64,000 bases of DNA from Burkholderiaceae bacterium. GTDB lineage: Bacteria; Pseudomonadota; Gammaproteobacteria; Burkholderiales; Burkholderiaceae_C. Both the position numbers and the translations under genes were made by a program. Positions within the stretch are counted from its first letter, which is position 1. Each line of letters begins with the position of its first letter. Of this stretch, positions 7,736-58,124 are shown piece after piece. Under the pieces are notes generated by a model that saw only the letters and a list, made by a program, of their open reading frames with translations, did no database searches and was not told the DNA's origin. The DNA lies in NCBI GenBank assembly GCA_919902775.1, contig CAKKRJ010000007.1:62001-126000 (forward strand), given 5' to 3'.

Positions 7736-7763
7736 CGCCCAATGCACCCAGCTGCATTGGGCG
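7736..7763 (+). terminator. intrinsic terminator-like hairpin
   Basis: An 11-base perfect stem (CGCCCAATGCA / TGCATTGGGCG) with a six-base loop lies 28 bases after the stop of the ABM-like gene and is followed by TTGCCACTTTT. The stem is strong but the T tract is interrupted. Confidence 0.7.
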
Positions 7764-7970
7764 TTGCCACTTTTGAGCCGCGGCACGAGGCCCGCCCAAC
7801 ACGGATCACGCCACTAAGGCAAAAGAGCCAGCAAGCAGCCCCCACCATGTACGAACACGTTATGCGTAAAACACATGACCTGACAGCCAAGCGGCCTTGG
7901 ACGCGGCCGCAGGCCCGCCCTAACATTTGCGGCACTGACAAATCGTCAGGTTCAAGAAAGGCGTCCGCAC

Positions 7971-9281: not shown

Positions 9282-9340
9282 AAGCGTTTCCAGCGGGTTC
9301 AAAGCGGTCAACTGCAAAGCACTGAATAGGATGACGGGTT

Positions 9341-9418
9341 CTGAAGTTGAGGGCGCTGGCCGGGGCTCAGAGGCGCTTCGCTTTGCCACATCGCCCCAGC
9401 CAGCGCCCTCAGCTTCAG
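9341..9418. repeat. long hairpin 1 of a paired palindromic repeat
   Basis: A nearly perfect stem of about 25 base pairs (starting CTGAAGTTGAGGGCGCTGGC and closing with GCCAGCGCCCTCAGCTTCAG) encloses a loop of about 25 bases. The loop at 9367-9392 is the exact reverse complement of the segment at 9553-9578 in hairpin 2. There is no reading frame of interest. The gap 9282-9625 holds only this hairpin, a REP-like unit and hairpin 2. Confidence 0.85.
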
Positions 9419-9451
9419 GGTGGTGTCGCTTTTCTTCTGTAACCGGTTTTT

Positions 9452-9489
9452 TGTGGGAGGCCGCACCTGCGACCGAAGGCTGTTCTTTC
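9452..9489 (+). repeat. REP-like palindromic unit (copy A, single)
   Basis: This copy begins TGTGGGAGGCCGCACCTGCG and continues ACCGAAGGCTGTTCTTTC. It matches the right-hand arms of the elements at 24012-24050 and 25785-25819. Here it stands alone between the two long hairpins, without an inverted partner. Confidence 0.8.
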
Positions 9490-9527
9490 ACCGTCACGGC
9501 TGCCAGCATGACCGCCGCTCTCAGCAC

Positions 9528-9603
9528 AGAAGGGGTGGGCCTTGGCAGGGGTGATGTGGCAAAGCGAAGCGCCTCTGAACCTCTGTCAAGGCCCACCCCT
9601 TCT
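9528..9603. repeat. long hairpin 2 of a paired palindromic repeat
   Basis: A stem of about 21 base pairs (AGAAGGGGTGGGCCTTGGCA pairing with the CTGTCAAGGCCCACCCCTTC region, one G-T) encloses a loop containing GATGTGGCAAAGCGAAGC at 9553-9570. The stem sequence is unrelated to that of hairpin 1, while the loop core is the same sequence inverted. It ends 23 bases from the lrp stop, so it may also end transcription from both convergent genes. Confidence 0.85.
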
Positions 9604-9625
9604 GACCAACCTTCTAGGCTTAGGC

Positions 9626-10093
9626 TCAGGGCTTCAGGGGCAGCGCCCCTGCGGCCTTGACCTCGCCCAGCGAAAAGCTGGTGTGCAGGTCTTTCACGTT
9701 GGGCAAATTGATCAGCACATCGCGCGCAAACTGGCTGAAGGTATTGAGGTCTTTGCTGACCACCTGCAGCTCGAACGTGCCGGTGCCGCTGATGTAATGG
9801 CAAGAAATCACTTCCGGGATCTTGAGGATCTCTTCTTCTAGCTGGCGCGTCACATCGCCCCGGTTGCGCTCGGCATCCAGCCGCACAAAGGCCAGCACGT
9901 CCAGGCCCACTTTCTGGCGATCGATTTCGGCCCGGTAACCTTTGATGACACCCGACTCTTCCAAAGCCCGCACTCGCCGCCAGCAAGGCGCTGCCGACAA
10001 GCCCACACGCTGCGCCAATTCGGCGTTGGTCAAACGTCCGTCTTTCTGCAATTCATTCAATATTGCCCAGTCAAATTTATCAAACGTTTCCAA
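9626..10093 (-). CDS. Lrp/AsnC family transcriptional regulator
   Basis: This protein of about 155 residues has the N-terminal winged helix-turn-helix (LNELQKDGRLTNAELAQRVG then SAAPCWRRVRALEESGVIKG) and a C-terminal RAM ligand-binding domain with the VISCHYISGTGTFELQV region. I start at the TTG at 10093, which has AAAGGA six bases upstream and gives the standard FDKFDWAILNELQ N-terminus; a longer frame from a TTG at 10135 is possible. It is divergent from the indolepyruvate oxidoreductase gene, so it most likely regulates that gene from the shared 121-base spacer in response to an amino acid. No operator is identified. Confidence 0.92.
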   Translation of the reverse strand: METFDKFDWAILNELQKDGRLTNAELAQRVGLSAAPCWRRVRALEESGVIKGYRAEIDRQKVGLDVLAFVRLDAERNRGDVTRQLEEEILKIPEVISCHYISGTGTFELQVVSKDLNTFSQFARDVLINLPNVKDLHTSFSLGEVKAAGALPLKP

Positions 10094-10214
10094 AATCGTT
10101 CCTTTTAAGCAAGATTCTTTCAAATCATAGGGCAAATCCTGCTACAGAAAGAAAGCACCTGTCAGCCAGGCCGTCCTACACTGTGCTTCCAATTTCAGCC
10201 GCAGAGCACACACC

Positions 10215-43963: not shown

Positions 43964-45067
43964 ATGAACAAGCCATTTCGAATTTTGGGTCTGCTGTGTG
44001 GGCTGGCCTTGGCCGCGAACACCCCAGCGCAAGACAAACCGCCAGCCACCGCTGCCCCCAAGCCAGCTTTGACCGTGACGGTGGTGTCGCCGCAAACCGG
44101 CAACATGGGCCAAAAGATCAGCGCCAACGGCAACCTGGCCGCCTGGCAGGAAGCCATCGTCGGGGCCGAGGCCCAGGGCCTGAAGATCACCGAAGTGCGC
44201 GTGAACGTGGGCGACCGCGTGCAGCGCGGCGATGTGCTGGCTACTTTGCAGGCCGACACTTTGCGGGCGGAACTGGCGCAGGCGGAAGCCGCGCTGGCCG
44301 AAGCCACCGCCAGCGCACAAGAAGCCAAGGCCCAGGCCGAGCGCGCGCGCAGCCTGCAACAGCAAGGCTTTTTCAGCAATGCGCAACTGAGCCAGGCGCT
44401 CGCCGCCGAGGCGGCGTCTGTGGCGCGCGTGCAGTCGGCCCGCGCCCTGGTGCAGCTGCAAGGGGTGCGCCTGTCGCAAACTCAGGTGCGTGCGCCCGAT
44501 GCGGGCATCGTCGCGGCGCGTCAGGCCACGCTGGGCAGCGTGGTGGGCGCGGGCACCGAGTTGTTTCGCCTCATCCGGCAAGGCCGCATCGAGTGGCGTG
44601 CCGAAGTGACCGCGGCCGAGATGGGCCGAATTCAGGTGGGTGCGCCGGCGCACATCAAAGCCGCCAGCGGTCAGGTGTTGCAAGGCAAGGTGCGCATGGT
44701 CGCGCCTGCGGTGGATGCGCAAACCCGCAACGCACTGGTTTATGTGGACTTGCCCGCACACATCGGCAGTGCCCGCGCAGGCATGTACGCCCAGGGCGAC
44801 ATCAGTTTGGGCCAAAGCCAGGCCCTCACCGTGCCGCAAACGGCGGTGGTGGTGCGCGACGGTTTCAGCTATGTGTACACCGTGGGGGTGGGCCAAAAAG
44901 TCAGCCAGCTCAAGGTGCAAACCGGCCGCCAAAGCGCAGGCCGTGTGGAGGTGCTGGGCGGCCTGAAGGCCGACGCCCAGGTGGTGGCCAGTGGCGGTGC
45001 CTTTTTGAACCAGGGCGACACCGTGCGCGTGGTGGACGCGGCCGTGTCCGCAGCGGCCAGCAAATAA
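43964..45067 (+). CDS. RND efflux periplasmic adaptor (membrane fusion protein)
   Basis: This 367-residue protein has a signal (LCGLALAANTPAQ), a lipoyl/barrel-sandwich domain (ITEVRVNVGDRVQRGDVLAT), a coiled-coil hairpin rich in Ala/Glu/Gln (about residues 95-155) and a C-terminal barrel with PQTAVVVRDGFSYVY. It links an RND pump to an outer-membrane channel. The next gene, 9 bases downstream, is the pump. No TolC-type channel gene is present here, so a shared channel elsewhere is assumed. The substrate is not evident. Confidence 0.92.
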   Translation: MNKPFRILGLLCGLALAANTPAQDKPPATAAPKPALTVTVVSPQTGNMGQKISANGNLAAWQEAIVGAEAQGLKITEVRVNVGDRVQRGDVLATLQADTLRAELAQAEAALAEATASAQEAKAQAERARSLQQQGFFSNAQLSQALAAEAASVARVQSARALVQLQGVRLSQTQVRAPDAGIVAARQATLGSVVGAGTELFRLIRQGRIEWRAEVTAAEMGRIQVGAPAHIKAASGQVLQGKVRMVAPAVDAQTRNALVYVDLPAHIGSARAGMYAQGDISLGQSQALTVPQTAVVVRDGFSYVYTVGVGQKVSQLKVQTGRQSAGRVEVLGGLKADAQVVASGGAFLNQGDTVRVVDAAVSAAASK

Positions 45068-45076
45068 AGGGACGCC

Positions 45077-48000
45077 ATGCTCAACGTCTCTTCTTGGTCG
45101 ATCCGCAACCCGATCCCGGCGGTCATGCTGTTTGTGCTGCTGACGGTGGCGGGCCTGATCGCGTTTGGTTCCATGAAAGTGCAAAACTTTCCGGACCTGG
45201 ACGTGCCCACCATCACCGTCACGGCCAGCCTGCCGGGCGCTGCGCCCTCGCAGCTGGAAACCGATGTGGCCCGTAAACTGGAAAACGCGCTGGCCCCGCT
45301 GCAAGGCCTGAAACACATCACCACCAAAGTGCAAGACGGCGCGGTCTCGATCACCGCCGAGTTCCGCATGGAAAAGCCCACGCAAGAGGCCGTGGACGAT
45401 GTGCGTTCGGCCATTCAGGGCGTGCGCGCAGACCTGCCGGGCGACCTGCGTGACCCGGTGGTGCAAAAGCTCAACCTGGCGGGCACGCCGGTGCTGGCTT
45501 ACACCGTGCGTTCTGCGCGCATGGACGACGAAGCCCTGTCCTGGCGGGTGGACAACGACATCACCCGCAAGCTCTTGTCGCTGCGCGGGGTGGGCGCGGT
45601 CAACCGCGTGGGCGGTGTGATGCGCGAGGTGCGTGTGGCGCTCGACGTGAACCGCCTGCAGTCGTTGGGCATCACGGCGGCCGAGGTGTCGCGCCAGCTC
45701 AAGCAGGTGCAGCAAGAAGGTTCGGGTGGCCGCATGGACCTGGGTTCGGGCGAACAACCCGTGCGCACTTTGGCGACCGTGAAAACGGCGCAAGAGATTG
45801 GCCAGATCGAGTTGGCCACCGCACGGGGCGTCAGCGTGCGGCTGGACCAGGTGGCCACGGTGAGCGACACGCTGGCCGATGCCCGGTCGGCCGCCAGCCT
45901 GAACGGCACGCCCGTGGTCGGCTTTGAGGTGGTGCGCAGCAAAGGCGAGAGCGAAGTGGCCGTGGGCCGCTTGGTGCGTCAGGCGCTGGCCGACTACCGG
46001 CTGCAAAACCCCGACTTGGAGATCACCGAAGCCTTTGACTTTGTGACCCCGGTGGAAGAGGAATACAACGGCTCCTTGGTGCTGTTGTACGAGGGCGCGA
46101 TTTTGGCGGTGCTGGTGGTGTGGCTGTTCTTGCGCGACTGGCGCGCCACGTTCGTGTCGGCGGTGGCGTTGCCGCTGTCGGTCATCCCGGCGTTCATCGG
46201 CATGGCCTATCTGGGCTTTTCCATCAACGTGGTGACCTTGCTGGCGCTGTCTTTGGTGATTGGCGTGCTGGTGGACGACGCGATTGTGGAGGTAGAAAAC
46301 ATCGTGCGCCATTTGCGCATGGGCAAGTCGCCTTACCAGGCCGCCATGGAGGCGGCCGACGAGATCGGCCTGGCCGTGATTGCCACCACGTTCACGCTGA
46401 TCGCGGTGTTTTTGCCCACGGCCTTCATGAGCGGCATTCCCGGCAAGTTCTTCAAGCAGTTTGGCTGGACGGCGTCGCTGGCGGTGTTCGCCTCGCTGGT
46501 GGTGGCGCGGGTGCTCACGCCCATGATGGCCGCTTACATTCTGAAGCCCATCGTCACGGCCGCGCACGAGCCCGGCTGGCTCAAGCGCTACATGGTCTGG
46601 GCCAACTGGTGCATGAAGCACCGCCTGGCCACCATGGTGTTGGCCACGTTGTTTTTCATCGGCTCCATCTTGCTGGTGCCGCTGCTGCCCAAGGGCTTCA
46701 TTCCGCCGGATGACAACTCGCAAACCCAGGTCTATGTGGAGTTGCCCCCCGGCTCCACCTTGGCGCAGACCCAGGCCAGCGCCGAACATGCCCGCACGCT
46801 CTTGATGACGGTGAACGATGTGAAAAGCGTCTACACCACCATCGGCGGCGGCAGCGCAGGCAGTGACCCGTTTGCCGGTGGCGGCGCGGCCGAGGTGCGC
46901 AAGGCCACGCTGACCATCCAGCTGACCGAGCGCGGCACGCGCCCGCGCAAGCAAGCAATCGAAAACGACATCCGTGCAGTCCTACAGCAACTGCCCGGTG
47001 TGCGCACCAAGGTGGGCCTGGGCGGTTCGGGTGAGAAATACATCCTGGTGCTCACGGGCGAAGACCCGCAGGCCTTGCAAAGCACCGCCATGGCTGTGGA
47101 GAAAGACCTGCGCACCATCCAGGGCCTGGGCTCGATCGCCTCCACCGCCAGCCTGGTGCGCCCCGAGATCGCGGTGCGCCCCGACTTTGCCAAAGCCGCT
47201 GACCTGGGCGTGACCAGCGCGGCCATCAGCGACACCCTGCGCGTGGCCACACTGGGCGACTACGACGCGGCCCTGCCCAAGCTCAACCTGTCTGAGCGGC
47301 AAGTGCCCATCGTCGTCAAGTTGGGCGATGACGCACGGCAAGACCTGGCCACGCTGGAGCGCCTGCTGGTGCCCGGCAGCCGTGGCCCCGTCATGCTGGG
47401 CCAGGTGGCCCGCATCGAGGTGGCGGGCGGCCCGGCCGTGATCGACCGCTACGACCGCCAGCGCAACGTCAACTTCGAGATCGAGTTGTCGGGCATGCCG
47501 CTGGGCGATGTGACGCAAGCGGTGCAACAACTGCCCGCCCTGCAAAGCCTGCCGCCGGGCGTGAAGATCGTGGAGGTGGGCGACGCCGAAGTCATGGGCG
47601 AACTCTTCGCCAGCTTTGGCCTGGCCATGATGATTGGCGTGCTGTGCATCTACATCGTGCTGGTGCTGCTGTTCAAGGGCTTCTTGCACCCCGTCACGAT
47701 TTTGGCGGCGCTGCCGCTGTCGCTGGGCGGCGCGTTCGTGGGCTTGCTGATCGCGCAAAAAAGCTTCTCGATGCCCTCGCTGATCGGCCTGATCATGCTC
47801 ATGGGCATCGCCACCAAGAACTCGATCTTGCTGGTGGAATACGCCATCGAAGCGCGGCGCGGACACCCCGCCACCGACGGCCACCCTGCCGTGCCCGGCA
47901 TGAGCCGCTGGGATGCCCTGCTGGACGCCTGCCACAAACGGGCCCGACCGATTGTGATGACCACCATCGCCATGGGCGCGGGCATGCTGCCCATCGCCGT

Positions 48001-48181
48001 GGGTTGGGGTGCGGCCGACGCCAGCTTCCGCTCGCCCATGGCGATTGCGGTGATTGGGGGCTTGCTCACCAGCACCGTGCTGAGTTTGCTGGTGGTGCCG
48101 GTGGTGTTCACTTACCTGGATGACCTGGGGCAGTGGACAAAGCGCATGGCCACACGTGTGACGGGACGGGGCGCCAGCTGA
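45077..48181 (+). CDS. RND family multidrug/solute efflux transporter
   Basis: This 1034-residue pump has the RND plan: an N-terminal helix (IPAVMLFVLLTVAGLIAFGS), then PDLDVPTITVTASLPGAAPS and a large periplasmic loop, and six helices including a segment with VLVDDAIVEVENIVRHLRMG, the relay motif. The second half repeats this with MLMGIATKNSILLVEYAIEA. The NFPDLDVPTITV start fits the hydrophobe/amphiphile efflux (HAE) group of MexF/AcrB relatives. It is translated from an operon with the adaptor. The substrates are unknown. Confidence 0.93.
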   Translation: MLNVSSWSIRNPIPAVMLFVLLTVAGLIAFGSMKVQNFPDLDVPTITVTASLPGAAPSQLETDVARKLENALAPLQGLKHITTKVQDGAVSITAEFRMEKPTQEAVDDVRSAIQGVRADLPGDLRDPVVQKLNLAGTPVLAYTVRSARMDDEALSWRVDNDITRKLLSLRGVGAVNRVGGVMREVRVALDVNRLQSLGITAAEVSRQLKQVQQEGSGGRMDLGSGEQPVRTLATVKTAQEIGQIELATARGVSVRLDQVATVSDTLADARSAASLNGTPVVGFEVVRSKGESEVAVGRLVRQALADYRLQNPDLEITEAFDFVTPVEEEYNGSLVLLYEGAILAVLVVWLFLRDWRATFVSAVALPLSVIPAFIGMAYLGFSINVVTLLALSLVIGVLVDDAIVEVENIVRHLRMGKSPYQAAMEAADEIGLAVIATTFTLIAVFLPTAFMSGIPGKFFKQFGWTASLAVFASLVVARVLTPMMAAYILKPIVTAAHEPGWLKRYMVWANWCMKHRLATMVLATLFFIGSILLVPLLPKGFIPPDDNSQTQVYVELPPGSTLAQTQASAEHARTLLMTVNDVKSVYTTIGGGSAGSDPFAGGGAAEVRKATLTIQLTERGTRPRKQAIENDIRAVLQQLPGVRTKVGLGGSGEKYILVLTGEDPQALQSTAMAVEKDLRTIQGLGSIASTASLVRPEIAVRPDFAKAADLGVTSAAISDTLRVATLGDYDAALPKLNLSERQVPIVVKLGDDARQDLATLERLLVPGSRGPVMLGQVARIEVAGGPAVIDRYDRQRNVNFEIELSGMPLGDVTQAVQQLPALQSLPPGVKIVEVGDAEVMGELFASFGLAMMIGVLCIYIVLVLLFKGFLHPVTILAALPLSLGGAFVGLLIAQKSFSMPSLIGLIMLMGIATKNSILLVEYAIEARRGHPATDGHPAVPGMSRWDALLDACHKRARPIVMTTIAMGAGMLPIAVGWGAADASFRSPMAIAVIGGLLTSTVLSLLVVPVVFTYLDDLGQWTKRMATRVTGRGAS

Positions 48182-48266
48182 TTCGCTCCTCATCGAGGCC
48201 TTTGCGGCCTTTGCACCCTTTGTGCGTGGCATCCGCTGGCTGCTGAATCTGCCCTGACCCGCGTGG

Positions 48267-48443
48267 TCATGGGGCAGGCCGCAGGGCGCTCAATTTGTTG
48301 GCCCGGCAGCGGTCGCTGCAATACAAAACGCTTTCCCAGTTTTTGGCCCAGCTTTTGCGCCACGCCATGGCACGTCCACACACAGCGCAGGGTTTTTGCG
48401 GCAAGTCTCGTTTGTTCCCTTTGAAAGCCGAGGGGTTGGGCAT
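48267..48443 (-). CDS. DUF2256-type small zinc-ribbon-like protein
   Basis: This 58-residue protein starts MPNPSAFKGNKRDLPQKPCA and carries CAVCGRAMAWRKSWAKNW and VLYCSDRCRANK, the two Cys pairs (C-x2-C and C-x3-C) of the DUF2256 family. It probably binds zinc. DUF2256 genes are known to sit beside cryptochrome/photolyase and related light-response genes in many bacteria, which fits the gene cluster starting divergently 82 bases away. The function is unknown. The longer frame in another phase over this region is not coding. Confidence 0.9.
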   Translation of the reverse strand: MPNPSAFKGNKRDLPQKPCAVCGRAMAWRKSWAKNWESVLYCSDRCRANKLSALRPAP

Positions 48444-48470
48444 GGTTTTCTCCTGTGAAAAGGGACGACC

Positions 48471-48519
48471 GAGACAAGCGCGGTAAAGACGACTATACTA
48501 ACCAGTCACAAAACAGGTT
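48471..48519 (+). promoter_or_regulatory. sigma-70-like promoter with an overlapping palindromic operator
   Basis: GAGACA (48471-48476), a 17-base spacer and TATACT (48494-48499) form a plausible promoter for the nine-gene cluster. An imperfect inverted repeat, AACCAGT-N6-ACAGGTT (48500-48519, six of seven paired), covers the expected start of transcription near 48506, as a repressor site would. No regulator gene lies beside it. Confidence 0.55.
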
Positions 48520-48524
48520 TTAAA

Positions 48525-49154
48525 GTGCAAATGAAAAACTCATGGGTAAGTCAGTGGCTTGGTCGTCTGGCGCTGGTCTTGTTGGCGGCCGGTTGGGGCT
48601 TGATCATCCCGCTGGTGCAGGCCGGCCCCGCTGTGGGTTTGTTGGCCGCTGCATCCGCCAGTCCGGCCCACTGCCCGGTCCTTTTGAACCACACGTTCGA
48701 GCGACTGCAAGATGAAAAACCGCAGTCGCTGTGCCAGTACGCAGGCAAGGTGGTGCTGGTGGTCAACACCGCCAGCTTTTGCGGCTTCACCGGGCAATAC
48801 AAAGGCCTGGAAGCGCTGAACACCCGCTACAAAGACCAGGGTCTGGTGGTGTTGGGTTTCCCGTCGAACGACTTTTCTCAAGAAAGTGGCAGCAACCAGC
48901 AGATCGCCGATTTTTGTGAAAGCACCTTTGGTGTGCAGTTTCCGATGTTCACCAAAACCCAGGTCACGGGCGAGAACGCCTCAGCCCTGTTCAAACAGCT
49001 GACCGCGCAAACCGGCCAAAAGCCACGCTGGAACTTTCACAAATACCTGATCGGTCGCGACGGCAAAGTCATTGACCAGTACAGCAGCCTGACCGGGCCG
49101 GACAGCAAAACCCTGCTGTCTGCCATCGAAAAAGCACTGAAAGCCAAACCATGA
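48525..49154 (+). CDS. exported glutathione peroxidase family protein
   Basis: This 209-residue protein reduces hydroperoxides. The peroxidatic Cys is in NTASFCGFTGQYKGLE, and WNFHKYLIGRDG supplies the Trp-Asn pair. The usual catalytic Gln of FPCNQFG is replaced by Asp in GFPSNDFSQESG, as in a known proteobacterial subgroup. An N-terminal hydrophobic stretch (LALVLLAAGWGLIIPLVQA) suggests export, so it acts in the periplasm or on membrane lipids. I start at the GTG at 48525, with CAGG seven bases upstream; the ATG at 48531 is an alternative. It is the first gene of the cluster and its stop overlaps the next ATG. Confidence 0.88.
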   Translation: MQMKNSWVSQWLGRLALVLLAAGWGLIIPLVQAGPAVGLLAAASASPAHCPVLLNHTFERLQDEKPQSLCQYAGKVVLVVNTASFCGFTGQYKGLEALNTRYKDQGLVVLGFPSNDFSQESGSNQQIADFCESTFGVQFPMFTKTQVTGENASALFKQLTAQTGQKPRWNFHKYLIGRDGKVIDQYSSLTGPDSKTLLSAIEKALKAKP

Positions 49155-50482
49155 GCCGCCGCATGAAACTGGCCATCGTGGGTTCGGGCATTTCAGGCCT
49201 GGCCGTGGCCCATACCTTGAAGGACCACGCCGACATCACCGTGTTCGAAGCGGGCGATTACTTTGGCGGCCATACCCACACGGTCGACATCACCCTGCCC
49301 ATACCGCAGGGCCCGGTCACGCACGGCGTGGACACGGGTTTTCTGGTCTTCAACGAGCGCACGTATCCGAACCTGATCAACCTGTTTGCGGAATTGGGTG
49401 TGGAGACCGCGCCGTCCGACATGTCGTTCTCGGTCAAGGTGCCGGGGGCGCTGAATGGCAAAACCCTCGAGTGGAGCGGCACCGACCTGAACAGCGTGTT
49501 CGCCCAGCGCGGCAACCTCGTGAACCCGCGCTTTTGGCGCATGCTGGCCGATGTGCTGCGCTTCAATGCGCTGTGCACCCGCATCGCACAAACGCAGCGT
49601 GAACAAGACCTGCAGCAGCCGCTCGCCACCTTTTTGCGCACGCACAAATTCAGCGACGCCTTTCGCGATTGGTATTTCCTGCCCATGCTGGGCTGCATCT
49701 GGAGTTGCCCGACCGACCAGATGCTGCAATTTCCGGTGGCCACCATGATCCGCTTTTGCCACAACCACGGCTTGATCCAAGTGACCCAACGGCCGCAGTG
49801 GTTCAGCGTGGTGGGCGGTGCCCGAACTTACGTCGAGAAAATCCTGGCCGGTGTGCACGACAAACGTTTGAACACGCCTGTGCGTTTGATCGAGCGCGAC
49901 GAACAAGGCGTGCGCATCGTCACCGATGGCCATGCCGAACGCTTTGACCAGGTGGTGATGGCCACCCACACCGACCAGGCGCTGGACTTGTTGCGCGCGC
50001 CCAGCACAACCGAACGCACCCTGCTGGGGGCCATTCGCTACCAGGACAACCGCGCCGTGCTGCACACCGACGCCCGCGTGCTGCCCGCCAACCCCAAGAC
50101 CTGGGCCGCGTGGAACTACGAACGCGCCAGCAGCAGCGTGCGCGAGTCTTCGCGCGTGTGCCTGCACTACCTGCTGAACCGCTTGCAACGCATCCCGTTT
50201 CAGCAACCGGTGGTGGTGTCGCTGAACCCATTGCAAGACATCGATCCGGCCACCATCGTGGGCACCTACGACTATGCGCACCCGGTGTTTGACCTGGCCG
50301 CCATCGCAGCCCAAAAGCGCCTGCCTTTGCTGCAAGGCCAGCAGCACACCTGGTACGCCGGAGCCTGGACGGGTTATGGCTTTCACGAAGACGGGCTCAA
50401 GTCCGGCTTGCAAGTGGGCCGCGCCTTGCTCAAGCAAATTCACGAGCAGGGCAGCGTTGCCCCAGGCCAGCAGGCGGCATGA
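49151..50482 (+). CDS. FAD-dependent amine-oxidase-like protein of the lipid-modification cluster
   Basis: This 443-residue flavoprotein has the dinucleotide motif VGSGISGLAVAHTLKDHAD at its N-terminus, then FEAGDYFGGHTHT, and a C-terminal WYAGAWTGYGFHEDGLKSGL. That C-terminal block is characteristic of the NAD/FAD-binding proteins found next to DUF1365 and CFA-type genes. Its reaction is not firmly known; in Rhodobacter sphaeroides a relative belongs to the sigma-E/ChrR singlet-oxygen regulon (recalled from literature). The ATG overlaps the peroxidase stop and the stop overlaps the DUF1365 start, both by four bases. Confidence 0.88.
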   Translation: MSRRMKLAIVGSGISGLAVAHTLKDHADITVFEAGDYFGGHTHTVDITLPIPQGPVTHGVDTGFLVFNERTYPNLINLFAELGVETAPSDMSFSVKVPGALNGKTLEWSGTDLNSVFAQRGNLVNPRFWRMLADVLRFNALCTRIAQTQREQDLQQPLATFLRTHKFSDAFRDWYFLPMLGCIWSCPTDQMLQFPVATMIRFCHNHGLIQVTQRPQWFSVVGGARTYVEKILAGVHDKRLNTPVRLIERDEQGVRIVTDGHAERFDQVVMATHTDQALDLLRAPSTTERTLLGAIRYQDNRAVLHTDARVLPANPKTWAAWNYERASSSVRESSRVCLHYLLNRLQRIPFQQPVVVSLNPLQDIDPATIVGTYDYAHPVFDLAAIAAQKRLPLLQGQQHTWYAGAWTGYGFHEDGLKSGLQVGRALLKQIHEQGSVAPGQQAA

Positions 50483-51255
50483 GCGCCGCGACCGCGCTCA
50501 TGGGTTGGGGCCAGGTGCGGCACACGCGCCACCGCCCGGTACGCCATGCGTTTGTTTACCCCACGGCGTTTTTGTTGTTGCCCATGCGCCAGGTGCAAGC
50601 GGGTCGCTGCGTCACAGACCTGGCCATCAACCGCCGCGCCTGGTTCGCCTTTCATGATGCCGACCACGGCGATGGCCGCCCCCCTGCACAGGGCGGTGCG
50701 CTGGCCTGGCTGGATGAACTGTTGACCCAGGAAGGCATCCACGATGCGTGTGGTGAAGTCTGGCTGCAGGCCTTTCCCCGGGTGTTGGGCCATGCCTTCA
50801 AACCGGTGAGTTTTTGGTACGCGCACCGAACCGATGGCAGCTTGGCCGCCATCGTGGCCGAAGTGAACAACACCTTTGGCGAGCGCCATGGCTATTTGCT
50901 GCCCGCGCCGCAATACGGCCGCACCCTGCTGGCCCAAAAGGTGTTTCATGTCTCGCCTTTTTGCGCCGTGCAGGGCGTGTACCGTTTTCGCTTCATGCGT
51001 GTGGCACATGACGGCACGGAACGCATTGTGGCGCGTGTGGACCATGCCGACGAGGACGGCCCCCTGATCGATACCAGCTGGAGCGGCGTGCTGGAGCCTG
51101 CGACAGCCGCTGCTTTGCGCCGCGTGACGTGGCGCTTTCCCCTGTTGACCTTGGGCGTGGTGGCACGCATCCACTGGCACGCACTTCGGCTGTGGCTGAA
51201 AAAAGTGCCGTTCTGGCGCAAGCCCGAACCCCCGCGCGAATTTTTGACCCGATGA
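50479..51255 (+). CDS. DUF1365 family protein
   Basis: This 258-residue protein belongs to DUF1365: the opening GWGQVRHTRHRPVRHAFVYP, the middle GHAFKPVSFWYAHRTDGSLA and VAEVNNTFGERHGYLL, and KVFHVSPFCAVQGVYRF are the family blocks. No catalytic residue is established. Genes of this family travel with the flavoprotein upstream and with a CFA-type methyltransferase, so it probably acts on membrane fatty acids (inference). It overlaps the upstream gene by four bases and precedes the methyltransferase by 16. Confidence 0.9.
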   Translation: MSAATALMGWGQVRHTRHRPVRHAFVYPTAFLLLPMRQVQAGRCVTDLAINRRAWFAFHDADHGDGRPPAQGGALAWLDELLTQEGIHDACGEVWLQAFPRVLGHAFKPVSFWYAHRTDGSLAAIVAEVNNTFGERHGYLLPAPQYGRTLLAQKVFHVSPFCAVQGVYRFRFMRVAHDGTERIVARVDHADEDGPLIDTSWSGVLEPATAAALRRVTWRFPLLTLGVVARIHWHALRLWLKKVPFWRKPEPPREFLTR

Positions 51256-51271
51256 ACACTGGAGCCCCCGC

Positions 51272-52531
51272 ATGGCCTGCACGATGAAAACCCTGGGCAC
51301 CGCCGCTGTTGCGGCGGCGTTGACCACCGCAACGAAGATCCCGCATGCCCGTTTGCCCCCGGCGGCCACACGCTTGCTGGGCCTGCTGACGCGTTTGAAG
51401 ATCGGCACGCTCACCCTGCACGCGCCGGACGGCAACCACCAGGTGTTTGGCACACACGAAGCGCCCTTTGCGGCCTTGCACATCCACCACTGGGCGGTGT
51501 GTGCCGAGGTGCTCAAGTCGGGCGACATCGGCTTTGCCGAAGGCTACATGTCGGAAGACTGGACCACGCCCGACCTGACCGCCCTGCTGCGCCTGTTGAT
51601 TGCCAACCGCAAGCACATCGAAGGGGCGATTTACGGGCACTGGCTGGGACGCCTGGCTTACCGCGTCAAGCACCTGCTCAACCGCAACAACCGCAGCAAC
51701 AGCCGCAAGAACATCCACGCGCATTACGACCTGGGCAACGCGTTTTACGCGCTGTGGCTGGACCCGACGATGAACTATTCATCGGCCTGGTTTGACGGCG
51801 ACCCGACCCAGCCCATGGCCGATGCGCAACAAGCCAAGGTGCGTCGCGCCCTGCGCATGGTGGACGCGCAACCGGGTGACCGCGTGCTGGAGATCGGTTG
51901 CGGCTGGGGTGCGTTGGCCGAAGCGGCCACCACCGAGCGTGGCGCCCACATCACGGGTGTGACCTTGTCCACCGAACAATGGGCCTTTGCCAACGCCCGC
52001 ATGCAGGCGCTCGGTGTGCAAGCGCAGGCCGACTTGCGCTTGCAGGACTACCGCGACATTGCCGATGCACCGTTTGACGCGATCTGCTCGATCGAGATGG
52101 TCGAGGCGGTGGGGCAGGCGTACTGGCCCACGTACTTCCAGACCATCAGCCGCTTGCTCAAACCCGGTGGCCGCGCCTGTGTGCAGAGCATCACCATCGA
52201 CGACAGCCTGTTCGAGCGCTATGTGCACTCGACCGACTTCATCCAGCAGTACATTTTTCCGGGCGGTTGTTTGCCCAGTCCCAGCGCGTTCCGCAAGCAG
52301 GCGCAGGCGGCAGGTTTGCAGGTGGTGGATGAACTGCACTTTGGCCCCGATTACGCCGAAACCCTGCGCCGCTGGCGTGCGCAGTTCATGGCGCAACTGG
52401 ACGCGGTGCGCGCGCTCGACTTCGACGACCGTTTCATTCGCCTGTGGGCGTTTTATCTGACGTATTGCGAAGCCGCGTTCGATGAGGCCAGCATCGACGT
52501 GGTCCAGTTCACCCTGGTCAAACCAGCCTGA
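51272..52531 (+). CDS. cyclopropane-fatty-acid-synthase family SAM-dependent methyltransferase
   Basis: This 419-residue protein has the CFA-synthase layout: an N-terminal lipid-facing domain, NIHAHYDLGNAFYALWLDPT, YSSAWF, the SAM motif VLEIGCGWGALAEAA, ICSIEMVEAVGQAYWPTYFQ and a C-terminal FIRLWAFYLTYCEAAF. It transfers a methyl group from SAM to the double bond of phospholipid acyl chains. In this gene setting, relatives may make methylated or furan-type fatty acids rather than plain cyclopropane ones. The ATG at 51272 has GGAGCCCCC upstream; an internal ATG at codon 5 is possible. Confidence 0.92.
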   Translation: MACTMKTLGTAAVAAALTTATKIPHARLPPAATRLLGLLTRLKIGTLTLHAPDGNHQVFGTHEAPFAALHIHHWAVCAEVLKSGDIGFAEGYMSEDWTTPDLTALLRLLIANRKHIEGAIYGHWLGRLAYRVKHLLNRNNRSNSRKNIHAHYDLGNAFYALWLDPTMNYSSAWFDGDPTQPMADAQQAKVRRALRMVDAQPGDRVLEIGCGWGALAEAATTERGAHITGVTLSTEQWAFANARMQALGVQAQADLRLQDYRDIADAPFDAICSIEMVEAVGQAYWPTYFQTISRLLKPGGRACVQSITIDDSLFERYVHSTDFIQQYIFPGGCLPSPSAFRKQAQAAGLQVVDELHFGPDYAETLRRWRAQFMAQLDAVRALDFDDRFIRLWAFYLTYCEAAFDEASIDVVQFTLVKPA

Positions 52532-52536
52532 ACCGC

Positions 52537-53145
52537 ATGCACGCGCACTTCAACACGACCTGGGCCGGGCTGGTTCGCGCCCATCGGGCGAGATGCTGGC
52601 TGCGCGCGGCCTTGCTGGGCGCGGTGCTGGGCAACAGTTGGGTGCAGGCCCATGCGCGGCCCGATGCCGAGCGCAACCACCCTGAAGTTGCGGCCCTGAA
52701 AGGTGCTGTGCCGACCGCGCCTGTGCGCTTGCGCGTGTGGGGGTTTGAGGTGTACGACGCCCGGTTGTGGCGGTCTGCGGGGTTTCGGTATGGCCAATAT
52801 GCGCAGCACCCTTTTACATTGGAGCTGCAATACTTGCGCCGCCTGGAAGGTGCCGCCATCGCCAGTCGCTCGATCGACGAGATGCGCCGCGTGGGCCGTT
52901 TCACCGAAGTCCAGGCCCAAAGTTGGCAGGCGGCCCTGCGGGCGCTGGTGCCGGATGTGGGGCCGGGCGACCGCATCAGCGGGGTCAACCTGCCCGGTGT
53001 GGGTGCCGAGTTCTGGGTCAATGGCCAGCGCGTGGGTGCGGTCCATGACAGCGTGTTTGCGCGCCTGTTTTTTGGCATCTGGCTGGACGAGCGCAGCTCC
53101 GAGCCCAAGATGCGCAGCCAGTTGTTGCAAGGTCTGACGCCATGA
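52537..53145 (+). CDS. exported chalcone-isomerase-like domain protein
   Basis: This 202-residue protein has a signal-like segment (CWLRAALLGAVLGNSWVQA then HA) and a chalcone-isomerase-like body (VRLRVWGFEVYDARLWRSAG, then FTLELQYLRRLEGAAIASRS, and DSVFARLFFGIWLDERSSEP). Bacterial members of this fold (CHI-like, CHASE-adjacent names vary) have no proven isomerase activity, and some bind fatty acids, which suits a lipid-modification gene set. It starts five bases after the methyltransferase and overlaps the MFS gene by four bases. Confidence 0.85.
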   Translation: MHAHFNTTWAGLVRAHRARCWLRAALLGAVLGNSWVQAHARPDAERNHPEVAALKGAVPTAPVRLRVWGFEVYDARLWRSAGFRYGQYAQHPFTLELQYLRRLEGAAIASRSIDEMRRVGRFTEVQAQSWQAALRALVPDVGPGDRISGVNLPGVGAEFWVNGQRVGAVHDSVFARLFFGIWLDERSSEPKMRSQLLQGLTP

Positions 53146-54515
53146 ACGACGGACCTGCACCGCTGACCCGGTTGCACACCCCGGGCACGGCCCTGGTGGC
53201 GACCTCGGTGCAAGCGACGCTGCCCGCATCCACCGTCGCGGCGTATGGCTTGCTGGGTTTGCCTTTGGCTTTTGTGGCGTTGCCGGTGTACGTGCATTTG
53301 CCCCACCTGTATGCCCAGCAATACGGCGTGCCGCTGGCGGCGCTGGGTGGCGTGTTGCTGCTCAGCCGCAGCATCGATGCGGTGGTGGACCCGTGGCTGG
53401 GGCGCTGGGGTGACCGGTTGTACCGCCACGCTGGGTCAGCGGTGTGGCAGGCGGCGGTGCTGTTGGCGCTGGCGGTGGCGCTGGGTTTTGCGGCCTTGTT
53501 TTTCCCACCTGCGAGCCAGCTGTCACCCGTGGGTTTTCTGGTCTGGGTGGGCGGCGCCCTCACCCTCAGCCACCTGGCTTACAGCGGGCTGGGCATCTTG
53601 CACCAGGCCTGGGCCGCCCGGCAAGGCGGCGGCGCTCTGGCGCAAAGCCGCTGGGTGGCGTGGCGTGAAGGCTTTGCCCTGGTGGGCGTGTTGCTGGCCT
53701 CGACCTTGCCCGCCCTGTGGGGTTGGGGCATGACCACGGCGTTGCTGGTGCTTTTGCTGGGCTCGGGTTTGTTCAGCTGGCGGCACACCGCTGCGCGGGT
53801 GACGGCCCTGCCTGTTGCACGACAAGGCGCAAGTCAAGCTGCAGCGCAGGGCGCTGTCAGCCTGTGGCAACCCTGGAAGCATGCGGGCTTTCGCCGCTTG
53901 TTGATGGTGTTCATGCTCAACGGTCTGGCCAGTGCTGTGCCCGCCACGCTGGTGCTGTTTTTTGTGCAAGACCGCTTGCAAGCGCCCCAGGCAATGGCGT
54001 CCTTGTTTTTGGCTTTGTACTTTGCCGCCGGGGCGTTGTCGTTTCCGCTGTGGCTCAAGGTGATCGACCGCATTGGCCTGCTGCGGACCTGGGCGCTGGG
54101 CATGGGCTTGTCGGTTCTGGCCTTTGGCAGCGTGATCGGGTTGGGCGCAGGCGACAGCGCCGGCTTTTGGGTGGTGTGCGCGCTGTCGGGCATGGCGCTG
54201 GGGGCCGACCTGACGGTGCCCGGGGCGCTGCTCAACCAGTTGATTGACAGCTGCGGCGAGCGAGGCCGGTCAGACGGCGCGTTCATGGGCTGGTGGAATT
54301 TGGCGACCAAACTGAATCTGGCCTTGGCCGCAGGTTTGTCGTTGCCGCTTTTGGGGCTGTGGGGCTATGTCCCGGGGCGGCAAGACGCCGATGCCCTGCT
54401 GGCGCTGGGCTTGGCTTATGGCTTGCTGCCTTGCGTGCTCAAACTGTTGGCCGGACTGGCTTTGTACTGGGATTTGGTGCGTGCGCCAGCGCCGTCAGTT
54501 GCGGCGCAGGCCTGA
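53142..54515 (+). CDS. MFS transporter of the GPH/sugar-cation symporter type
   Basis: This 457-residue membrane protein has about twelve hydrophobic segments and the start of a GPH-like transporter (AAYGLLGLPLAFVALPVYVH, then LYAQQYGVPLAALGGVLLLS and RSIDAVVDPWLGRWGDRLY). The second half shows DRLQAPQAMASLF and GADLTVPGALLNQLIDSCGE. Its relative in Rhodobacter lies in the same kind of cluster. The substrate is unknown; sugar transport is not implied by the neighbours. It overlaps the CHI-like gene by four bases and is followed by the DUF3833 lipoprotein. Confidence 0.88.
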   Translation: MNDGPAPLTRLHTPGTALVATSVQATLPASTVAAYGLLGLPLAFVALPVYVHLPHLYAQQYGVPLAALGGVLLLSRSIDAVVDPWLGRWGDRLYRHAGSAVWQAAVLLALAVALGFAALFFPPASQLSPVGFLVWVGGALTLSHLAYSGLGILHQAWAARQGGGALAQSRWVAWREGFALVGVLLASTLPALWGWGMTTALLVLLLGSGLFSWRHTAARVTALPVARQGASQAAAQGAVSLWQPWKHAGFRRLLMVFMLNGLASAVPATLVLFFVQDRLQAPQAMASLFLALYFAAGALSFPLWLKVIDRIGLLRTWALGMGLSVLAFGSVIGLGAGDSAGFWVVCALSGMALGADLTVPGALLNQLIDSCGERGRSDGAFMGWWNLATKLNLALAAGLSLPLLGLWGYVPGRQDADALLALGLAYGLLPCVLKLLAGLALYWDLVRAPAPSVAAQA

Positions 54516-54551
54516 CCTTTTTTGACCTTGTTGAGACCACCGGAAACGTCC

Positions 54552-55142
54552 ATGAACCCCATCCATCGCCGCACTGCCCTGACCCGTTTGGCTGCCCTGC
54601 CCGTTTTGCCTGTGGTGGCGGCAACGCCCTTTCTGGCGGGCTGCGCCGGGCCGCAGGTGCAAAACTACGCGCAGGAAAAACCGCAACTTGACCTGCGCAG
54701 CTACTTCAACGGCACCCTCGATGCCTGGGGTGTTTTCACCGACCGCAGTGGCCAGGTTGTCAAGCGGTTCAGCGTGGTGATGGACTGCCGCTGGCAGGGC
54801 AACGAAGGCGTGCTGGACGAAGCCTTTGTGTACTCGGACGGCACCACGCAGCGCCGCATCTGGCGGCTCCAGGCCGGGGCCAACGGCGCCTACACCGGGC
54901 GCGCAGACGATGTGGTGGGTGAGGCCTCCGGCCAGGTCAGCGGCAACGCGTTTCGCTGGGGCTACACGCTGGCGCTGCCGGTCGATGGCCGTGTCTGGCA
55001 GGTGGACTTCGACGACTGGATGTACCTGATGGACGACCGGGTGATGCTCAACAAGGCCACCATGCGCAAGTGGGGTGTGCGCTTGGGTGAAGTCACCTTG
55101 TCGTTCACGCGCCGCACGCCGCTTGCGGCCCAGCCGGCTTGA
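54552..55142 (+). CDS. DUF3833 lipoprotein
   Basis: This 196-residue protein, from the ATG at 54552 (MNPIHRRTALTRLAALPVLP), has a lipoprotein signal ending FLAGCAGPQVQ. The mature part matches DUF3833: LDLRSYFNGTLDAWGVFTDR, VVKRFSVVMDCRWQGNEGVL, YTGRADDVVGEASGQVSGNA and LDDWMYLMDD-like FDDWMYLMDDRVMLNKATM. The family resembles a lipocalin-type barrel and has no proven function, but it recurs in this light-stress or lipid gene set. It lies 36 bases after the MFS gene. Confidence 0.9.
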   Translation: MNPIHRRTALTRLAALPVLPVVAATPFLAGCAGPQVQNYAQEKPQLDLRSYFNGTLDAWGVFTDRSGQVVKRFSVVMDCRWQGNEGVLDEAFVYSDGTTQRRIWRLQAGANGAYTGRADDVVGEASGQVSGNAFRWGYTLALPVDGRVWQVDFDDWMYLMDDRVMLNKATMRKWGVRLGEVTLSFTRRTPLAAQPA

Positions 55143-55147
55143 GCCCC

Positions 55148-55966
55148 ATGCGCGCAACCCCTGGCACTTCGGCCCGCCTTGCGCCACGCCGCTGGCGGCA
55201 ACTGAACACCCCCATCACCGATTGGTCCGGTCGCCGGGTCTGGTTGGTGGGGGCATCGACGGGCATTGGCCTGGCCTGCGCACAGGCCTTGCGTGCCGCC
55301 GGTGCGCAGGTGGTGTTGTCGGCCCGCCATCCGCAAGGCGTGTCAGACTGGGCCGCGCAAGATGCGGGGGTGCAGTGGCGTGCGCTCGATGTGTTGGACC
55401 CGGCGCAAGTGTTGGCCACGGCCCACGCCATTGAGGCCGAAGGCCCGCTTGACTTGGTGGTGTATGCCGCCGGTTACTACCGCGCGCAACGCGCCACCGC
55501 CGTTGACCTGGAAGACTTGTTGCAGCACGACAAAGTCAATTACCAGGGGGCGTTGCAGGTGATCAACGCGGTGCTGCCGGGCATGCTGGCGCGCCAAAGC
55601 GGGCACATCAGCCTGCTCAGCAGCGTGGCGGGCTGGCGTGGTCTGCCCAACGGGCTGGCCTATGGTCCGACCAAGGCGGCCCTGACGCACCTGGCCGAAA
55701 CGCTGTACATGGATTTGCAGGACCAGGACATCGGCGTGAGCGTGGTCAACCCCGGCTTTGTGGCGACCCCGCTCACGGCGCAAAACCCGTTCACCATGCC
55801 CGCGTTGATCAGCCCTGAACAGGCCGCGCGGGAAATGCTCAAAGGCTGGGCCCAAGGCCAGTTCGATATCCATTTCCCCAAGCGCTTCACCTTGTGGCTG
55901 AAATTTTTACGCCTGCTACCCTACCGCCTTTACTTTCCGCTGGTGCGGCAGTTCACCGGTTTGTGA
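55148..55966 (+). CDS. short-chain dehydrogenase/reductase
   Basis: This 272-residue SDR has the NAD(P) motif GASTGIGLACAQALRAAGAQ, LVVYAAGYYR, a catalytic Ser in ISLLSSVAGWRGLPNGLAYG with the YxxxK next (AYGPTKAAL), and VSVVNPGFVATPLT. The C-terminal HFPKRFTLWLKFLRLLPYRL is basic and apolar and may bind the membrane. The reaction is unknown; a hydroxy- or keto-lipid step is a reasonable guess. The ATG at 55148 is used; an in-frame TTG at 55139 overlaps the upstream stop. Confidence 0.9.
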   Translation: MRATPGTSARLAPRRWRQLNTPITDWSGRRVWLVGASTGIGLACAQALRAAGAQVVLSARHPQGVSDWAAQDAGVQWRALDVLDPAQVLATAHAIEAEGPLDLVVYAAGYYRAQRATAVDLEDLLQHDKVNYQGALQVINAVLPGMLARQSGHISLLSSVAGWRGLPNGLAYGPTKAALTHLAETLYMDLQDQDIGVSVVNPGFVATPLTAQNPFTMPALISPEQAAREMLKGWAQGQFDIHFPKRFTLWLKFLRLLPYRLYFPLVRQFTGL

Positions 55967-55985
55967 GCGTGCATTGAAAGCCCCC

Positions 55986-56420
55986 ATGGACACACGAAAA
56001 GCCACGCAAAATTTGGCCACGTTTTTTGAAACCTTGACACCGCAAAGCGTGGCGCAGTTGCACACGATTTACGACGCGCAAGCCACGTTCAAAGACCCGT
56101 TCAATGAGGTGCAGGGCCTGGCCGAGATCGAGCGCATTTTCCGCCACATGTACGTGGCGCTGGACCAACCGCACTTCGTCATCACCGGCCAACTGGTTGA
56201 CGGGGCGCAGGCTTTTTTGACGTGGGAATTCCGTTTTCGCTTCAAGCGTTTTGACACCCGCACCGTGCAGACCGTGCGGGGCGCCAGCCATGTGGTGTTC
56301 AACGAACAAGGCCTGGTGACGCTGCACCGCGATTACTGGGACGCGGCCGAAGAGGTGTATGAAAAATTACCGGTGCTGGGCAGCGTGATGCGTTGGCTCA
56401 AACAACGCGCCAACAGCTGA
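55986..56420 (+). CDS. NTF2-like (SnoaL-type) small protein
   Basis: This 144-residue protein has the NTF2/SnoaL cone fold: TLTPQSVAQLHTIYDAQATF then KDPFNEVQGLAEIERIFRHM, FVITGQLVDGAQAFLTWEF and GASHVVFNEQGLVTLHRDYW. Members bind small hydrophobic ligands or act as isomerases, with no certain role here. It ends the nine-gene cluster. The ATG at 55986 is used; a TTG four codons upstream is in frame. An AT-rich gap of 186 bases follows. Confidence 0.87.
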   Translation: MDTRKATQNLATFFETLTPQSVAQLHTIYDAQATFKDPFNEVQGLAEIERIFRHMYVALDQPHFVITGQLVDGAQAFLTWEFRFRFKRFDTRTVQTVRGASHVVFNEQGLVTLHRDYWDAAEEVYEKLPVLGSVMRWLKQRANS

Positions 56421-56606
56421 TCTGCCCAACACACGTGGCCGTCAAATTGGGCACGTCTTTGACGACGATCGGCAATGGTTGCAAGACACCCTCACGCCGG
56501 AACCTCAGCCTTGGATTCAAGTGCTTGCGGCAGTGGTAAATCTTGTTGTATAGTGAAATCGCGACAAAAATCAAAATTAAACACCGTTTGAGCGACAAAT
56601 TACCCC

Positions 56607-58124
56607 GTGACTGGCCCACTGAATCTCAAAAACGCGACAACGGATACAACTTTGATTTTGTATGCGGAGATCAGTCCTGCTCAAAAGCGCGCTGTTCAGC
56701 GAGAGATTCAAGCCGGGAACTTGACGCGAATCGCCACGGGTATTGTCAGCAGCTTGCCTGCATCCGACTGGCCTCAGGTGATCGCACGCGAGCGCTTGCG
56801 CGTGCTGGCTGCCATGTTTCCAGGTGCTGTGCTCAGTCACCGCACGGCGTTCAGCGGTGGGCAGCCCGAAGACGGCATGGTGCACTTAACGCACAGCTTC
56901 AAACGTACCGTCCAGCTGCCGGGATTAAGCGTCATGCTTTGGAAAGGGCCACCTGTAGCTCCCGGTGATGCACCCATGTTGGGGCGTGATCTCTACTTCC
57001 CATCCTTGCCTCGCTTGTTGCTCGAAAACTTGCAGCCCAGTCGTGCGCCTCATCGTCGCTCAGTCGGGCGCGAGGCGGTTGAAAAACGGCTCCTCGAAAC
57101 CTGTGATGCCCGCGGCGAAGAGGCCCTTTCGCAACTGCGCGAACAAGCACGCAGCTTGGCTCCTGTTTTGGAGCTAGAGGCCGAGTTCAGAGTGCTTGAT
57201 GATTTGGTTGGCAGCATCTTGGGTACCCGCGCTTCGCAGCTCACCACCCCACAGGGCATCGCACGCACCGCGCACATGCCCTACGACCCTGAGCGTTTGG
57301 CGCTCTTTGAACAGCTCGCGGCTCAGCTGCGGTCTACCCCTTTGGCGCAGCCCCCTGCCGTGGTTCAAACCGAAACAGCCCGAGCCAACTTTGCCTTTCT
57401 TGAGTCGTATTTCAGCAACTTCATCGAGGGCACCGAGTTCGATGTGCAGCATGCACGTGCCTTTGTGCTGCAAGGCCAGCCCATCGCTGAGCGTCCCAAA
57501 GATTCGCATGACATTCTGGGTGTGTTTCAACAGGCGCTGCAGCCTGGCTGGGCATTGCAAACACTGGCCAGTGGCGAACCTGTTTTGAACCAATTACGCG
57601 CTCGCCATGCAGATCAAATGCAAGAGCGCCCAGAGGTTGGCCCGGGTGAATTCAAGGTCTTGGCCAATCGCGCAGGCAATACCGAGTTTGTTGCCCCTCA
57701 GTTGGTGCGTGGCACCTTGGTTCAAGGCACGCAACTGCTGCCCAGCGTTCCTGCAGGCACGGCCAGGGCATTGCTGGCCATGTTCATCGTTTCAGAAGTG
57801 CACCCCTTTACCGACGGCAACGGGCGACTGGCTCGCTTGGTGATGAACGCTGAACTCTCTGCTGTAGGCAGCTGCCGCATCATCGTGCCAACACTTTTTC
57901 GCGAAGAGTACTTGGACAGTCTGCGTGCGCTCAGCCGTCAAGGCGATGCGGCACCTTTCATGGCTGCGATGCAAAAAATTCACCGCTGGACCGCGGCATT
58001 TCGCTATCAGGATTTGGACGACACCATTGCCCAAATGGCGCAATGCCATGCGTTTGAACGCTCTCCCATCCAGTTCAAGCTACTCACGCCATCTGCCAAC
58101 AGCCCCACAGCGGCTGGATCTTAA
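56607..58124 (+). CDS. AbiEi-like winged-helix/Fic fusion protein
   Basis: This 505-residue protein has two parts. Residues about 1-150 look like an AbiEi antitoxin-type winged helix domain (REIQAGNLTRIATGIVSS, then FPGAVLSHRTAFSGG and LYFPSLPRLLLENLQPSR). Residues about 230-480 are a Fic AMP-transferase with the full catalytic motif HPFTDGNGRLAR (399-410) and an upstream inhibitory helix SNFIEG (270-275) whose Glu would block activity, the class II self-inhibited layout. The start is a GTG at 56607 with no strong ribosome site; the true start may be elsewhere. It stands alone, with no antitoxin gene. A target-modifying stress or defence role is inferred. Confidence 0.8.
   Translation: MTGPLNLKNATTDTTLILYAEISPAQKRAVQREIQAGNLTRIATGIVSSLPASDWPQVIARERLRVLAAMFPGAVLSHRTAFSGGQPEDGMVHLTHSFKRTVQLPGLSVMLWKGPPVAPGDAPMLGRDLYFPSLPRLLLENLQPSRAPHRRSVGREAVEKRLLETCDARGEEALSQLREQARSLAPVLELEAEFRVLDDLVGSILGTRASQLTTPQGIARTAHMPYDPERLALFEQLAAQLRSTPLAQPPAVVQTETARANFAFLESYFSNFIEGTEFDVQHARAFVLQGQPIAERPKDSHDILGVFQQALQPGWALQTLASGEPVLNQLRARHADQMQERPEVGPGEFKVLANRAGNTEFVAPQLVRGTLVQGTQLLPSVPAGTARALLAMFIVSEVHPFTDGNGRLARLVMNAELSAVGSCRIIVPTLFREEYLDSLRALSRQGDAAPFMAAMQKIHRWTAAFRYQDLDDTIAQMAQCHAFERSPIQFKLLTPSANSPTAAGS

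Follow-up and report, generated by a model that had tools for sequence, protein, structure and literature searches.

The pathway for bacterial furan fatty acids is already known. In the available text of Lemke et al. 2020 (PMC7380195), UfaM methylates a vaccenyl chain, UfaD (an NAD/FAD-binding, phytoene-desaturase-like protein) makes the methyl-diene, and the DUF1365 protein UfaO is both required and sufficient for the O2-dependent step from that methyl-diene to the furan. The ufaM, ufaD, and ufaO genes are RSP2144, RSP1091, and RSP1090 in Rhodobacter sphaeroides, and the trio of Rhodopseudomonas palustris is RPA2569-2571. When RSP1087, RSP1088, and RSP1089, which lie downstream in the matching R. 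sphaeroides operon, were deleted one at a time, the fatty acids are reported to have stayed unaltered (PMC7380195); the three genes encode an SDR, a hypothetical protein, and a GPH symporter, respectively (PMC7074977). Exported peroxidase, SDR, transporter, and CFA genes have been published in such regulons (PMC4336711, PMC7074977, PMC9758184, as far as the consulted portions go), among them the periplasmic glutathione peroxidase PgpD of the Shewanella oneidensis RpoE2-ChrR regulon (PMC4336711), and light-induced ufaM clusters of Pseudomonas are under LitR/PplR (PMC9758184). Here we analyzed 64,000 nucleotides of a Burkholderiaceae genome (contig CAKKRJ010000007.1, here G000:C7:62001-126000; hereafter the window), taken from an assembly that is 84% complete and in 25 contigs, in which a preliminary description had placed a nine-gene lipid-modification cluster at 48267..56420. 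Our comparison indicates a furan fatty acid operon that is probably under a TetR-family repressor in place of LitR or sigma-E/ChrR, a reading carried by gene order, a UfaM signature, operator conservation, and the co-occurrence of tetR with its box, all of which were computed. The operon would be ordinary as a pathway; its control is the new part, and comparative sequence supports the regulator swap.

The open reading frame (ORF) list and Pfam names confirmed nine ORFs on the plus strand and a divergent 58-aa DUF2256 ORF on the minus strand, at the positions first given. Genes 2 to 4 match UfaD-UfaO-UfaM, which upholds the earlier view of a lipid-modification operon akin to sigma-E/ChrR and light-induced clusters and likely to make furan fatty acids. 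Gene 2 encodes a UfaD-like FAD desaturase (49151..50482, +; Pfam Amino_oxidase PF01593 / NAD_binding_8 PF13450), an NAD/FAD oxidoreductase beside UfaO. The UfaO-like protein (50479..51255, +) carries the DUF1365 domain (PF07103, 251 bits versus a cutoff of 25) and was modeled as a beta barrel with C-terminal helices (AlphaFold2, predicted local distance difference test [pLDDT] 94.6), and gene 4 encodes a UfaM-like S-adenosylmethionine methyltransferase (51272..52531, +; Pfam CMAS and PDB alignment). The FAD protein, DUF1365 protein, and CFA-type methyltransferase are grouped as in RPA2571-2569 of R. palustris, and likewise in Halomonas; a GPH transporter and an SDR lie downstream, as do RSP1089 and RSP1087 in R. 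sphaeroides. Unlike the systems of Lemke et al., the present operon is a single nine-gene unit that adds a peroxidase, a chalcone isomerase-like (CHI-like) protein, and an NTF2-like protein, and no ECF sigma/ChrR was found with it. In S. oneidensis, too, an exported peroxidase shares one oxidative-stress regulon, that of RpoE2-ChrR, with cfa and photolyase genes, but these genes form separate operons with TGATC-N-CGTA-type promoters (PMC4336711, in the part consulted), which are absent from the window. A similar arrangement is that of the Azoarcus sp. KH32C plasmid NC_020548, where the eight genes from ufaD to ntf2 stand in the present order behind a divergent MerR gene.

Cyclopropane synthases offered a reference for the methyltransferase. 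Escherichia coli Cfa holds its catalytic bicarbonate by Glu239, His266, and Tyr317 (PMC11387697, available part). In the PDB alignment, the equivalent residues of the window UfaM are Glu278, Gln305, and Tyr361, so that the Glu and Tyr ligands are kept and His266 is replaced by Gln. We counted these residues in 125 tblastn matches from loci L036-L073, L104-L123, and L197-L278, partial matches excluded; most of these loci had been selected for their UfaO gene. The His position was Gln, and the residue after the Glu was Ala, in 120 of 120 matches with at least 40% identity, and four of the five weaker matches had His at both positions. A product that is a methyl-branched or cyclopropane lipid, with no furan acid, could be argued from the fact that the methyltransferase scores to cyclopropane synthase models; however, it scores below the cutoffs of the matched cyclopropane and mycolic-acid synthase models (NCBIfam), Gln stands where the bicarbonate-ligand His is expected, and the gene sits with UfaD- and UfaO-type genes, and we regard such a product as improbable. 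By its sequence, UfaM differs from true cyclopropane synthases, and the His-to-Gln change would favor a methyl-alkene over ring closure. The signature provides a simple sequence test separating UfaM from cyclopropane synthases.

From comparison with these systems, we infer the chemistry of the present operon as follows: UfaM would methylate a phospholipid-bound 18:1 chain at its double bond, UfaD would then desaturate the chain to a conjugated methyl-diene, and UfaO would close the furan ring using O2, after which the furan chain would scavenge oxidants in the membrane and the exported peroxidase would remove peroxides outside the inner membrane. The DUF3833 and CHI-like proteins are probable lipid carriers in this scheme, with the MFS, SDR, and NTF2 genes as accessory. 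The operon very probably makes a protective membrane furan fatty acid. The chemistry of DUF1365, DUF3833, SDR, and NTF2 had been described as unknown, which needs amending for DUF1365, since UfaO has a proposed chemistry (PMC7380195, in its available text). The suggestion that DUF3833 and SDR are steps of the lipid pathway is probably wrong: MFS, DUF3833, and SDR are probably no pathway steps, because deletions of RSP1087-1089 left the reported fatty-acid profile unchanged (PMC7380195, same portion). DUF3833 is likely the counterpart of RSP1088, since mfs-duf3833-sdr occupies the matching place in some Rhodobacterales loci.

The nine genes form an operon that is conserved in bacteria. All nine were present in identical order in 20 of the 21 same-genus loci fetched, the exception (L115) lacking an MFS match. 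In the family, DUF1365 was present in 238 of 299 genomes, from which 38 loci were chosen by eye among the best-scoring rows, mostly on long contigs. Twenty-eight of these (27 from other genera of the family plus L036) are of the present operon type, and the eight genes from ufaD to ntf2 are in order in 24 of them, the remaining four lacking one or more; the other 10 are of another type, with ufaD-ufaO-ufaM at about 45% identity and a ChrR-like gene in 8 of the 10. The peroxidase and the CHI-like gene had been considered additions peculiar to this cluster, which they are not: within the 28 loci, a peroxidase gene lies at most 1.4 kb upstream of ufaD in 15, and a CHI-like gene is present in 27. 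ufaD accompanies DUF1365 in 38/38 family loci and in 77 of 80 loci from named genomes; in 12 of those 80, the eight genes are in order (tblastn). Gene order kept across the genus and the family therefore makes the operon more than chance. The tight packing described at the outset also stands, with four-base overlaps at four of eight junctions (in gene order -4, -4, 16, 5, -4, 6, -4, and 7 bases, with starts from the ORF tool) and the order kept in relatives, as in one operon; the DUF3833/SDR overlap and the gaps beside the DUF3833, SDR, and SnoaL genes are less sure, because the ORF list gives these three genes TTG starts, which are unsure.

Two regulator types recur at such loci. Among the 80 named loci, ECF sigma plus ChrR occurred in 36, LitR in 17, and LitR together with ECF in none; chrR-ecf is divergent before ufaD in 25, often with mfs, duf3833, and sdr downstream, and some named Rhodobacterales carry mfs-duf3833-sdr behind divergent ecf-chrR (e.g., Rhodovulum L222 and L225, and Roseovarius L210 and L211), others differing in content. 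In the family, the LitR type is a MerR protein with B12-binding domains, and LitR lies upstream of and divergent from ufaO in 71 of the 79 genomes with both among the matches listed. These 79 were taken from 151 genomes with ufaO among the matches listed; such adjacency counts cover listed matches only (about 150 per search), with LitR at 200 bits or more and two G247 fragments entered as one.

Neither type was found to serve the present operon. The own genome yielded no LitR ortholog (best match E 3e-5, versus at most 4e-59 for the 127 orthologs listed; assembly 84% complete), and no LitR ortholog was found in three 100%-complete genomes of the genus (G087, G189, and G264), weak matches across the four having E values from 3e-5 to 1e-7. 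No ECF sigma/ChrR was found beside the operon, genus loci included, the search for ECF sigma genes covering this neighborhood. An alphaproteobacterial ChrR query gave no match in the own genome or in 7 of 10 genus genomes and weak cupin-part matches in the other three; the only Cupin_7 protein of the own genome had no zf-HC2 match, so that no ChrR with an anti-sigma domain was found in this 84% complete assembly. The sigma-E-type promoter TGATC-N16-19-CGTA and the LitR box TTGTCN3GACAA each had no occurrence in the window. The shorter TTGTCN3GACA was found in 0 of 22 genus promoters versus 9 of 16 LitR-adjacent promoters of family loci L036-L073 (shuffle mean 0.01); this family palindrome differs from the TGTACA-N12-TGTACA of Pseudomonas class II LitR (PMC9758184, available text). 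In contrast to the LitR- or MerR-headed clusters of Pseudomonas and Azoarcus, the present genus has, as far as found, neither LitR ortholog nor LitR box and carries a TetR box instead, and LitR appears to have been lost in this genus. One could still suppose an ordinary LitR- or sigma-E-type light or singlet-oxygen operon whose regulator is merely missing from an incomplete assembly, since the assembly is only 84% complete, relatives carry LitR (as in the 71 genomes above) or ECF/ChrR, and known regulons of this type are induced by light or oxidants. This is nevertheless quite unlikely, given the three complete genus genomes without LitR ortholog, the genus genomes without any match to the ChrR query, and the absence of the two promoter elements from the genus promoters and the window, respectively. 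The claim that photolyase, ECF sigma, anti-sigma factor, and LitR are missing holds for the neighborhood; a DNA_photolyase-domain gene is on another contig, and promoter evidence points to a TetR-family repressor encoded 75 kb away more than to a lack of control. A second small cluster was observed in L034 at 7072-10405 (G000:C2, about 87-90 kb), comprising a TetR gene, an SDR, a FAD amine-oxidase-like gene, and a Cupin_7 (ChrR-cupin) gene without anti-sigma domain.

The candidate repressor gene lies on the minus strand of the same contig (G000:C7:35219-35842; PF00440, 56 bits), outside the window and 74.7 kb upstream of the operon. Its ortholog was found in 54 of 60 genus genomes (33 of 36 good-quality ones). 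The encoded protein has a TetR_N domain. The gene is unlinked in its own genome, but tetR adjoins ufaD in nine family genomes, found by eye by comparing positions of listed matches, and in Undibacterium squillarum (L266); in the eight of the nine that were fetched (L065, L069, and L176-L181), it is divergent from ufaD in 8/8, as it is in L266.

A sigma-70-like promoter, GAGACA-17-TATACT (48471..48499, +), precedes the operon at a position conserved in the genus. It was the sole one reported in 48100-56700 by the consensus scan, but one match is chance level (shuffle mean 0.9); by itself the scan counts for nothing, and conservation in the genus carries the argument. Over the -10 element lies a palindrome, TACTAACCAGTCA in the window (48496-48508, +), with AACTGATCAGTCA or close variants in relatives; promoter comparison and genome scan mark it as a putative TetR operator, TACT-AACC-AGTCA. 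When ten genomes were scanned with WACTRAYCAGTCACAAA, one mismatch allowed, nine had a single match, located 1.4 to 2 kb upstream of the ufaO of the same genome, the own-genome match being C7:110496 (window 48496); the reversed control gave 0, and G189 had none at that stringency.

The same symmetric box, written as ACYN4RGT, was found both at ufa and at tetR. It occurs in 21 of 22 genus ufa promoters (a long stretch was used for some loci), in 26 of 29 genus tetR promoters (shuffle mean 2.3, max 7; two of 31 upstream stretches excluded as too short), in 10 of 14 tetR promoters of other genera (L182-L195; mean 1.2, max 5), and in 9 of 9 ufa promoters beside tetR (mean 0.85, max 5), versus 3 of 16 ufa promoters beside LitR (mean 1.8, max 6) and 0 of 10 promoters of the other operon type (mean 0.8, max 5). 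In a stricter test, the canonical box was found at every one of the 21 genus loci from genomes with tetR and at none of the three from genomes lacking it (G302, G314, and G344). Eight of the ten box-bearing tetR promoters of other genera had arrays of two to four boxes about 19-22 bases apart, which suggests cooperative repression of tetR itself. Constitutive expression from a plain sigma-70 promoter, with the palindrome a promoter part and TetR regulating something else, would be compatible with the overlap of box and -10, through which promoter constraint could keep part of the box, and with the presence of TetR orthologs where the ufa promoter lacks a box. Against it, the conserved part of the genus promoters runs beyond the -10 to AGTCACAAAA, the box recurs at tetR and at ufa promoters beside tetR, and the canonical form is absent from the three tetR-less members, and we consider constitutive expression unlikely.

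Several observations weigh against control of a furan fatty acid operon by this TetR. The 80 named loci include neither R. sphaeroides nor R. palustris, and orthology to the Ufa proteins of these two species rests on domains, gene order, and the UfaM signature. The motif rule was written after all 24 promoters, tetR-less ones included, had been read, and because the motif is post hoc and the sequences are related, both the shuffles and the 21/0 contrast make the association look more significant than it is; the tetR-less genomes, three in number, may share one loss and may be one clade, and one of them, G302 (92% complete), carries a looser box at a shifted position. In other genera, loci with neither LitR nor an adjacent TetR had the box in 4 of 10 (shuffle mean 1.2, max 5), two of these far upstream. 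TetR orthologs also occur in genomes with LitR beside ufa, with boxes in four of the six such tetR promoters read, and TetR may have another main job. In a tree of 40 TetRs, the ufa-adjacent ones fell in two places (2 changes; shuffled mean 7.5), the genus group lying near one of them with modest support.

Weighing both sides, we retain the TetR reading, in which both DNA binding and signal are inferred: a TetR-family repressor would occupy ACT-N4-RGTCA, which overlaps the -10 element, and would come off the DNA on binding a signal, perhaps an oxidized or unusual lipid. We lean slightly toward the broader view that the pathway has three exchangeable regulators across Proteobacteria, namely, sigma-E/ChrR for singlet oxygen, LitR for light/B12, and an undescribed TetR repressor answering a chemical signal, perhaps the lipid itself. 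If true, the regulator swap in the genus would have uncoupled the making of furan lipids from the sensing of light. With the biosynthetic genes known, the question is what purpose furan fatty acids serve in bacteria outside phototrophy; the genus-wide swap would be a natural experiment to tell whether the pathway is for light defense or for a wider lipid-oxidation response, and a single clear operator and repressor at the operon would offer a direct route to the inducing signal.

The remaining genes of the operon were assigned as follows. The first encodes an exported glutathione peroxidase (gpx; 48525..49154, +; GTG start, alternative ATG at 48531; Pfam GSHPx, 108 bits), found in 21/21 genus loci, with a hydrophobic N-terminal export signal seen by eye. 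Its sequence reads GFPSNDF (window 48850-48880) where aligned yeast HYR1 has GFPCNQF, so that the Gln position is Asp; we take the Gln of that HYR1 motif to be the usual catalytic residue of such peroxidases. Behind ufaM follow the CHI-like protein (52537..53145, +; Pfam Chalcone_3 PF16036, 38 bits; N-terminal export signal by eye), a GPH/MFS_2 transporter (53142..54515, +; Pfam MFS_2, 120 bits), likely the RSP_1089 counterpart, and the DUF3833 protein (54522..55142, +), a predicted lipocalin/FABP-type barrel with a lipobox-like signal, FLAGC, by eye. The last two are an SDR oxidoreductase (55139..55966, +; Pfam adh_short, 119 bits), likely the RSP_1087 counterpart, and an NTF2/SnoaL-like protein (55974..56420, +; Pfam SnoaL_2, 55 bits).

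The divergent DUF2256 gene (48267..48443, -; Pfam PF10013, 71 bits) is most plausibly a remnant of the cluster's light-repair half, given its partner in genus loci and its place near LitR elsewhere. In 11 of 21 genus loci (L104-L114), DUF2256 is followed by a same-strand photolyase-related DPRP gene (PF04244), both divergent from gpx, and neither gene is present in the other 10; elsewhere in the family, DUF2256 lies at most 3 kb downstream of LitR, on LitR's strand, in 14 of 78 genomes with both listed. PF04244 had no match in the own assembly (84% complete), and the DPRP gene seems to have been lost in the window genome. In G189 (L114), the order is an RND pump (95% identical to that of the window), DPRP, DUF2256, and gpx, and in the window 85 bases separate the end of the RND gene (48181) from DUF2256.

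On the upstream side, an HlyD-type adaptor and this RND pump (43964-48181, +) directly precede the operon region, and the same pump was also seen upstream of gpx in genus loci L114 and L123 and in other-genus loci L061, L063, and L071. Right after the operon, a Fic/DOC-family protein of 505 aa is encoded at 56607-58124 (+); its Pfam match covers residues 328-416 only, and its N-terminal part, judged by eye, presumably resembles an AbiEi-type domain.

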